DNA of 64,000 nucleotides from Thermodesulfovibrio sp. 3907-1M. GTDB lineage: Bacteria > Nitrospirota > Thermodesulfovibrionia > Thermodesulfovibrionales > Thermodesulfovibrionaceae. The notes under the pieces were generated by a model that saw only the letters and a list, made by a program, of their open reading frames with translations, was not told the DNA's origin and did no database searches. The position numbers and the translations under genes were made by a program. The DNA lies in assembly GCF_040450955.1 (NCBI RefSeq), contig NZ_CP144373.1, positions 972,486 to 1,036,485 of the forward strand, read 5' to 3'. Shown in pieces: positions 11,803 to 13,355 of this stretch (position 1 is its first letter; each line of letters starts with the position of its first letter).

Positions 11803-12069
11803 ATGGAGTTTTCAATCAATTTAAATAACATTATTGGAATTGTAGCAGGAATAATAACAACAGGTGCTCTTGTTCCGCAGGCATTGAAAATTTATAAAAC
11901 AAAATCCGCCAGAGATGTCTCCCTTACGATGTTTATTTTTTTGGCAATAGGAATCACTCTCTGGTTTTTCTATGGAGTTTTGATTAAAGAATTACCTGTA
12001 ATTTTAGCAAACTTTGTTTCTTTAATTTTAATTTTTTCAATTATTTTTATGAAAATCCGCTATGGTTAA
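11803..12069 (+). CDS. SemiSWEET sugar transporter (PQ-loop)
   Basis: An 88-residue, three-helix membrane protein of the SemiSWEET family, whose homodimers carry sugars by facilitated diffusion. The PQ motif (GALVPQALKIYKTKSARDVS) lies in helix 1, followed by two more hydrophobic helices (FIFLAIGITLWFFYG and the C-terminal one). Length is typical. The substrate is unknown. It stands alone, diverging from the HDOD gene and converging on aroF with a 4-bp overlap. Confidence 0.9.
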   Translation: MEFSINLNNIIGIVAGIITTGALVPQALKIYKTKSARDVSLTMFIFLAIGITLWFFYGVLIKELPVILANFVSLILIFSIIFMKIRYG

Positions 12070-13079
12070 ATCTTTTCTACAACCGATGTAAAAAGCTTCA
12101 GATTTTCAACTAATCTGCCAAAAGAGCTGAAATTCAAAGATTGTGGTCCGTCAGAAAAGGCTTTTTCAGGCTGTGGATGAACCTCAATCATCAATCCATC
12201 TGCTCCTGCAGCAACAGCAGCATAAGCCATTGAAGGAACATATTTTGCATAACCTGTTGCATGGCTTGGATCAACTATTACAGGAAGATGCGTCTCTTCT
12301 TTAAGCACTGCTATAGCTGAAAGATCAAGAGTGTTTCTTGTGGCAGTTTCAAAGGTTCTGATTCCTCGCTCGCATAAAATAACATTTCTGTTACCTTCGC
12401 TCAGAATATATTCAGCACTCATAAGCCATTCTTTGATGGTCATTGACATTCCTCTTTTAAGTATTACGGGTTTCTGAACCTGTCCCACTCTTTTTAAAAG
12501 TTCAAAATTCTGAGCATTTCTCGTTCCAATCTGGAGAATGTCTGCATATTCGCAGACAAGGTCAACATGTTCAGGATTAACAACTTCTGTTACCACAGGC
12601 ATTCTGGCGATCTCTCCTGCTTTTTTGAGTAATTCAAGCCCTTCCTTGCCGAGTCCCTGAAAGGAATATGGAGAGGTTCTTGGCTTGTAAGCACCTCCTC
12701 TTAAAATATGAGCACCCATTAATTTTACAGTCTTTGCAGTGTTAATAATCTGCGCTTCATTTTCAACAGCACAGGGACCAGCGATTATAACAACTTCTTT
12801 GCCTCCAATTGACACATCTCCCACTTTGATAACAGTTTTTTCCTTTTTTACTTCCTTTGAGGCAAGCTTGTAGGGTTTAAGAATCGGTATAACAGCCTCT
12901 ACTCCATCAAGACTCTCAAGGCTCTGAAGTATAAATTTGCCCCTTTCATCTCCAACAGCTCCAATTACATTTCTTGTGGTGCCGTAGATCACATGGGGTT
13001 TGTAGCCAAGTTCTTCAATTTTGGATATTACCTCTTTAAGCTGTTCCTCTGTGGCTTCTGGTTTCATTACGATTACCAT
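12066..13079 (-). CDS. aroF: DAHP synthase (3-deoxy-7-phosphoheptulonate synthase), type I-beta with N-terminal regulatory domain
   Basis: A 337-residue enzyme condensing phosphoenolpyruvate and erythrose-4-phosphate, the entry to the shikimate pathway. Residues 1-70 form a ferredoxin-like domain ([18 protein letters not shown]) like the Tyr/Phe-sensing domain of the Thermotoga enzyme. The barrel follows with [32 protein letters not shown] and VDPSHATG. The gene is preceded by a leader peptide rich in Phe, Tyr and Trp and by a terminator/antiterminator, so both enzyme inhibition and attenuation by aromatic amino acids are expected. Confidence 0.95.
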
Positions 13080-13106: not shown

Positions 13107-13157
13107 ATAAAAAAGACAGACAGAACAGGGGCTTCCTCTGCCCCTGACCTGTCTGCC
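13107..13157 (-). terminator. Attenuator terminator before aroF
   Basis: On the minus strand, CAGGGGC pairs with GCCCCTG around the loop AGAGGAA. The stem is extended below a T-T mismatch and a G-T pair by AGACAG/CTGTCT, and TTTTTTATTT follows. The 5' arm overlaps region 3 (13148-13138), which can instead pair with region 2, so this is a conditional terminator. Confidence 0.88.
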
Positions 13158-13193
13158 TTGAATTTTTCTGCCAGACTAAAATGTCAGAGGCAG
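13138..13193 (-). promoter_or_regulatory. Antiterminator (2:3) and protector (1:2) pairing of the aroF attenuator
   Basis: Region 2, CTGCCTCTGAC (13193-13183), begins two bases after the leader stop codon. It can pair with region 3, GTCAGGGGCAG (13148-13138), over 11 positions with a single G-U, which would open the terminator. Region 2 can instead fold on itself with the following bases (CTGCC...GAC-loop-GTC-t-GGCAG, 13193-13168), which releases region 3 to form the terminator. This is the logic of amino-acid biosynthesis attenuators, with ribosome position on the leader deciding the fold. Confidence 0.85.
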
Positions 13194-13194
13194 A

Positions 13195-13242
13195 TTAGTT
13201 AAAGTAAAAGCCAAACCAGAAATAATAGATTTTCTCTGCCAT
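13195..13242 (-). CDS. Aromatic leader peptide of aroF
   Basis: A 15-codon reading frame, MAEKIYYFWFGFYFN, with AAAGGAG 6-7 bases before its ATG. Eight of 15 residues are Phe, Tyr or Trp (Y-Y-F-W-F-G-F-Y-F in a run of nine). Such codons would stall a ribosome when charged tRNA-Phe, -Tyr or -Trp is scarce, freeing the antiterminator. Too short for routine gene calling. The peptide itself probably has no function. Its composition suggests a response to all three aromatic amino acids, fitting a single DAHP synthase. Confidence 0.9.
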   Translation of the reverse strand: MAEKIYYFWFGFYFN

Positions 13243-13265
13243 TCAAGCTCTCCTTTAACTCCTTA

Positions 13266-13339
13266 TCGGGGTGAGAGGATTTGAACCTCCGACACCACGG
13301 TCCCGAACCGTGCGCGCTACCAGACTGCGCTACACCCCG
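13266..13339 (-). tRNA. tRNA-Pro (anticodon CGG)
   Basis: A complete cloverleaf: acceptor CGGGGTG pairs with CACCCCG, the anticodon stem-loop is CACGG-TTCGGGA-CCGTG, and the T arm is GGAGG-TTCAAAT-CCTCT. CCA is not encoded. The 3' end lies only 23 bp from the start of the aroF leader peptide, with a Shine-Dalgarno site in between and no room for a promoter, so the tRNA is probably processed from the aroF transcript. A TGtTATAAT extended -10 (13355-13347) stands 7 bp upstream. Confidence 0.95.
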
Positions 13340-13346
13340 TTTTAAT

Positions 13347-13355
13347 ATTATAACA
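13347..13355 (-). promoter_or_regulatory. Extended -10 promoter for tRNA-Pro and the aroF leader
   Basis: TGtTATAAT on the minus strand ends 7 bp before the tRNA 5' end and overlaps the last codons of pgeF. No strong -35 is seen. It is the only good promoter-like sequence close upstream of the tRNA-leader-aroF unit. Confidence 0.55.

Follow-up and report, generated by a model that had tools for sequence, protein, structure and literature searches.

The DAHP synthase gene (aroF) in the 64,000-nucleotide stretch of Thermodesulfovibrio sp. 3907-1M that we analysed (hereafter the window) appears to be preceded by a ribosome-mediated transcription attenuator, which would control a stand-alone copy of the enzyme and be read through from the promoter of a tRNA-Pro gene. 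We give this reading, which is built on sequence comparison and folding, a probability of roughly 85%. Among the genomes compared, the leader peptide, both hairpins and their spacing are conserved, and the tRNA is separable from them; it most likely lends the attenuator a promoter only. Switches of this kind are classical, and attenuation of a DAHP synthase is already known from the aroR-aroF system of C. glutamicum. Of the arrangement that a preliminary description of this DNA had called unusual, the upstream tRNA is indeed so, if dispensable, and the attenuation of DAHP synthase is not.

Along the minus strand of the window, pgeF (14022-13348) is followed, in this order, by an extended -10 element, tRNA-Pro, the leader ORF, the terminator and the DAHP synthase gene (12066-13079). 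The encoded enzyme is of type I-beta with an N-terminal ferredoxin-like domain, as assigned by NCBIfam (PRK08673, 520 bits; TIGR01361, 416 bits) and Pfam (PF00793 and PF18152). The genome is a single contig of 1.94 Mb and holds a second DAHP synthase, 57% identical to the first, which lies elsewhere in a pheA-aminotransferase-aroF-tyrA cluster. No leader was found at this second gene, which has only ~40 bp ahead of a divergent neighbour. As the second gene keeps company with pheA, the aminotransferase and tyrA and lacks a leader, the leader-controlled copy can be taken as the stand-alone isozyme. Inspection by eye upstream of trpE likewise showed no leader, and a covariance model of the element matched the aroF site alone in this genome. 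Rfam searches at gathering and relaxed thresholds returned neither a known attenuator nor a T-box in the region, and the window element did not match the T-box family (RF00230) or its core motif.

The leader ORF encodes MAEKIYYFWFGFYFN in 15 codons (13195-13242, minus strand, with the stop codon at 13197-13195). Directly visible ahead of its ATG is a Shine-Dalgarno region, TTAAAGGAGA (13250-13259, minus strand), which contains AAAGGAG. The leader is, as previously noted, rich in aromatic codons, with four Phe, three Tyr and one Trp. By aromatic content it ranks second among the 2083 ORFs of 10-30 codons called mechanically in the window, and six 64-kb first-order Markov sequences contained no ORF that was equally short and aromatic. 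With a rank of 2 in 2083, composition by itself is moderately unusual and suggestive only; it is conservation that makes the leader convincing. The same leader is found in all 13 species of the genus that have the orthologous DAHP synthase gene, with a G+A-rich site before the ATG in every one of them (13/13). Immediately 5' of the stop codon it takes the form Y-F-W-F-G/S-F-Y-F, with variations. Codons -2 and -4 encode Phe without exception; codon -3 is Tyr in 12 species and Phe in one. At several of the Phe and Tyr codons, TTT/TTC and TAT/TAC have been exchanged with the residue retained, so that the comparison of related leaders proposed in the preliminary description upholds the peptide in all 13 species.

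The antiterminator 5' arm, TCTGCCTCTGAC (13183-13194), starts right behind the leader stop codon, and its 3' arm, GTCAGGGGCAGA (13137-13148), overlaps the 5' arm and loop of an intrinsic terminator (13109-13159; all on the minus strand). This terminator is a hairpin of -33 kcal/mol followed by a U run (U6). Two-sided (compensatory) changes occur in 6 of its 18 pairs, a level matched by 2 of 500 shuffles, and 93% of the cells in the 13-species alignment are paired, a figure lowered by the misaligned, divergent L007, compared with 42-51% for slid partners. The antiterminator duplex has a predicted stability of -23.3 kcal/mol, which none of 5000 spacer shuffles reached, and 97% of its cells are paired across the 13 species. 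Its pairs are nearly invariant and changes in them are one-sided only; as variation within any sequence is one-sided, this amounts to conservation without covariation inside the genus. The antiterminator had been described with 11 positions and is present with 12, one of them a G-U pair.

The overlap of the arms also bears out, in silico, the earlier statement that the antiterminator excludes a strong terminator, and the protector hairpin described with them is present. In the minimum free energy fold the protector arm GGCAGA (13167-13172, minus strand) pairs with TCTGCC (13194-13189); in the relatives the protector is mostly tight, in the form CTGCC-TCT-GGCAG. Folded alone it reaches -11.2 kcal/mol at 37 °C. 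At 65 °C the terminator (-18.0 kcal/mol) and antiterminator (-13.7 kcal/mol) stay stable and the protector is weak, at -3.7 kcal/mol. As the protector is less stable than the antiterminator, above all at 65 °C, a simple folding model would have an untranslated leader antiterminate too; the protector hairpin may act kinetically. The covariance model recovers the element in 13 of the 16 genomes of the genus, always adjoining aroF, and its weaker second matches correspond to the opposite strand of the hairpin. Two species (L003 and L008) have an extra ~110 nt between the attenuator and aroF; this segment contains TCTGAGC as an inverted motif and may be a small repeat element.

To model the effect of translation, the transcript up to the antiterminator end was folded in all 13 species with a ribosome of 12-nt downstream footprint placed on successive codons. 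In every species (13/13) the antiterminator probability was 0.9-1.0 with the ribosome at codons up to -3; it fell to ~0.7 at -2 and 0.35-0.40 at -1, and with the ribosome on the stop codon it did not exceed 0.10. We therefore propose the following sequence of events. RNA polymerase would start at or just upstream of the tRNA and run on into the leader, and the CCA-less tRNA would be excised from the transcript and processed at its 3' end. With charged tRNA-Phe and tRNA-Tyr in good supply, the ribosome would reach the stop codon and cover the adjacent TCTGCC; the antiterminator would then be blocked, the terminator would fold and aroF would remain untranscribed. When Phe or Tyr (or perhaps Trp, where its codon is kept) runs short, the ribosome would stall a few codons earlier, allowing TCTGCCTCTGAC to pair with GTCAGGGGCAGA, which would block the terminator and let aroF be made. 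To this scheme the tRNA would contribute a promoter and a 5' end rather than any of the sensing logic.

Sensing of all three aromatic amino acids, as first suggested, overstates the case, with Phe invariant at two codons and Trp at codon -7 retained in 10 of the 13 species and replaced by Cys or Tyr in three. A switch that answers Trp, Tyr and Phe equally is thus doubtful: the window leader does carry codons for each of them, and the footprint geometry makes each aromatic codon a permissive stall site, but the three species with Cys or Tyr in place of Trp speak against it, as does the C. glutamicum aroR-aroF attenuator, whose Phe-Tyr-Phe leader is reported to respond to Phe and not to Tyr (Neshat et al. 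2014, as described in PMC11802643 and PMC4046766). That attenuator resembles ours in placing a short aromatic leader before a DAHP synthase, with stalling at aromatic codons. It differs in belonging to another phylum and in its shorter aromatic run, and its descriptions in these two sources mention neither Trp nor an upstream tRNA. The Thermodesulfovibrio leader, unlike that of aroR-aroF as so described, has a Shine-Dalgarno site; the two are compared here by description.

The tRNA-Pro gene (anticodon CGG; 13266-13339, minus strand) was called by ARAGORN and by Rfam (RF00005, 63.8 bits). Its CCA is not encoded, the 3' end reading CACCCCG-A and then TAAGG. An extended -10 element, TGTTATAAT (13347-13355, minus strand), can be seen directly 7 nt ahead of the tRNA, overlapping the pgeF stop codon; no -35 is recognisable, and transcription is expected to start at about 13340. 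A two-hexamer scan of the region found no minus-strand promoter and missed this extended -10. The sole good promoter previously placed before the tRNA is therefore correct in position and less so in quality. In most species of the genus a TATAAT lies shortly upstream of the tRNA, and in most it coincides with the pgeF stop codon. At two loci (L001 and L008) that stop codon has moved, yet a separate TATAAT still stands a few bases ahead of the tRNA; its retention speaks for genuine selection on the promoter.

As had been stated, 23 nt separate the tRNA from the leader ATG (13242-13240); this gap measures 15-23 nt in 12 of the 13 species, counting L002, in which the tRNA body is masked and the 3' end visible. 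Such a gap is too short for a promoter plus a Shine-Dalgarno site, making read-through from the tRNA promoter the simple reading, and tRNA and leader are likely to share a transcript in these 12 species. As the tRNA lacks an encoded CCA, its 3' processing would have to fall near the leader ribosome-binding site. Attenuation cannot change the supply of this tRNA, which lies upstream of the terminator.

Three sets of genomes indicate that the tRNA and the attenuator can be parted. In one species (G001) tRNA-Pro and the leader are ~12.8 kb apart, with the attenuator intact; the intervening region (L114 1-13600) holds a helicase, a methyltransferase and other defence-type genes, as named from their translations, and beside the leader no copy of the 3' end of the tRNA could be seen. 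In two others (G007 and G010, the latter 99% complete and a single contig) leader, attenuator and aroF are absent, with pgeF, the tRNA and SemiSWEET still in order, and on a pgeF tree the two cases fall out as separate changes within the genus. The promoter still stands directly ahead of the tRNA in G007. G010 has a repeat-like insert between pgeF and tRNA-Pro (L153 150-390), so that the sequence upstream of its tRNA is different. Finally, three genomes of sister families (G042, G045 and G055) have an orthologous DAHP synthase with a related leader, and their tRNA lies on another contig.

The split in G001, the losses in G007 and G010 and the sister-family leaders without the tRNA leave the single control unit of the preliminary description unsupported: a common transcript is likely (12/13), and membership of the tRNA in the unit is not borne out, tRNA and attenuator being separable in both directions. 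It is accordingly quite unlikely that the switch has the tRNA as a working part, such that leader translation, and through it attenuation, needs transcription or 3' processing of tRNA-Pro. The tight spacing of 15-23 nt, conserved in 12 of 13 species, and the CCA-less end that would require processing near the ribosome-binding site would suit this idea, but a leader and attenuator ~12.8 kb from the tRNA, two separate losses that spare it, and leaders in G042, G045 and G055 with the tRNA on other contigs all run against it. Only slightly less unlikely is it that the tRNA serves as a removable 5' cap; the leader would then gain its 5' end only by tRNA cleavage, and ribosome loading, and through it attenuation, would be coupled to tRNA-Pro 3' processing.

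It is very improbable that the hairpin is a plain premature or tRNA-unit terminator free of translation-dependent control, with the aromatic ORF incidental. Although the hairpin sits behind the tRNA and would end that unit, and chance aromatic ORFs arise in T-rich DNA, the terminator is lost together with the leader and aroF whereas the tRNA stays, and homologous leaders occur without the tRNA; moreover, the peptide is kept through synonymous changes and the antiterminator is present in all species. The attenuator with a borrowed promoter thus remains our preferred reading.

Leaders homologous to this one stand ahead of the orthologous gene in other families of the order (L091-L093), in which, by eye, GTCTGCC can still pair with GGGTAGAC, GGGGCAGAC and GGGCGGAC despite a changed 3' arm. 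By eye, too, TTGAC- and TA-rich promoter elements lie close to the leader ATG in G042, G045 and G055. At L092 (1260-1421), L093 (2577-2714), L091 (2574-2727), L094 and L097, TTGAC-type elements end within ~10 nt of the leader ATG. With promoter elements so near the ATG, the leader mRNA of the sister families is probably leaderless; actinobacteria are known to have leader-peptide ORFs of the leaderless type (PMC8079986). The leader at L094 is rich in Trp (LLFWRFTWWLC). A CCG Pro codon in sister-family leaders prompted the idea that the tRNA might help to decode the leader; this was rejected, that position being the stop codon in the genus.

Our search of the literature turned up no account of this attenuator for Thermodesulfovibrio, and the main text of PMC2965389 does not name DAHP synthase. 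With these findings, control by leader-peptide attenuation at the entry step of aromatic biosynthesis would reach into the Thermodesulfovibrio order. They also supply natural experiments, in which the tRNA was split off, the cassette was lost twice and sister families probably use a leaderless mRNA; together these suggest that the sensing part is separable from a borrowed promoter.

Parallels exist in E. coli. The pheL-pheA and pheST attenuators combine a short Phe-rich leader with a mutually exclusive antiterminator and terminator, as here, but they have other targets and are dominated by Phe, and no Rfam attenuator family matches the region. The thrU-tyrU-glyT-thrT-tufB operon carries structural tRNAs and an mRNA on one promoter, as tRNA-Pro and the leader transcript would. 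We know of no tRNA-mRNA operon of this type with a leader-peptide attenuator between tRNA and gene.

In Bacillota, T-box leaders precede DAHP synthase homologues (L010 2676-2942, L016 2694-2933, L021 1784-2030 and L037 2680-2944), putting the same gene family under the control of tRNA charging. A T-box differs in that uncharged tRNA is read directly, without a leader peptide, and the window has none. With leader ORFs in gut Clostridia as well, this gene family is a good case for the rewiring of a control point between RNA mechanisms. The gut Clostridia loci (L042, L043, L047 and L050) have a conserved aromatic leader ORF of another sequence, such as MKNFNGKNYFSFYFYAYFYQK, ~100-230 nt upstream; between it and the DAHP synthase gene lies a GC-rich hairpin that resembles a terminator.
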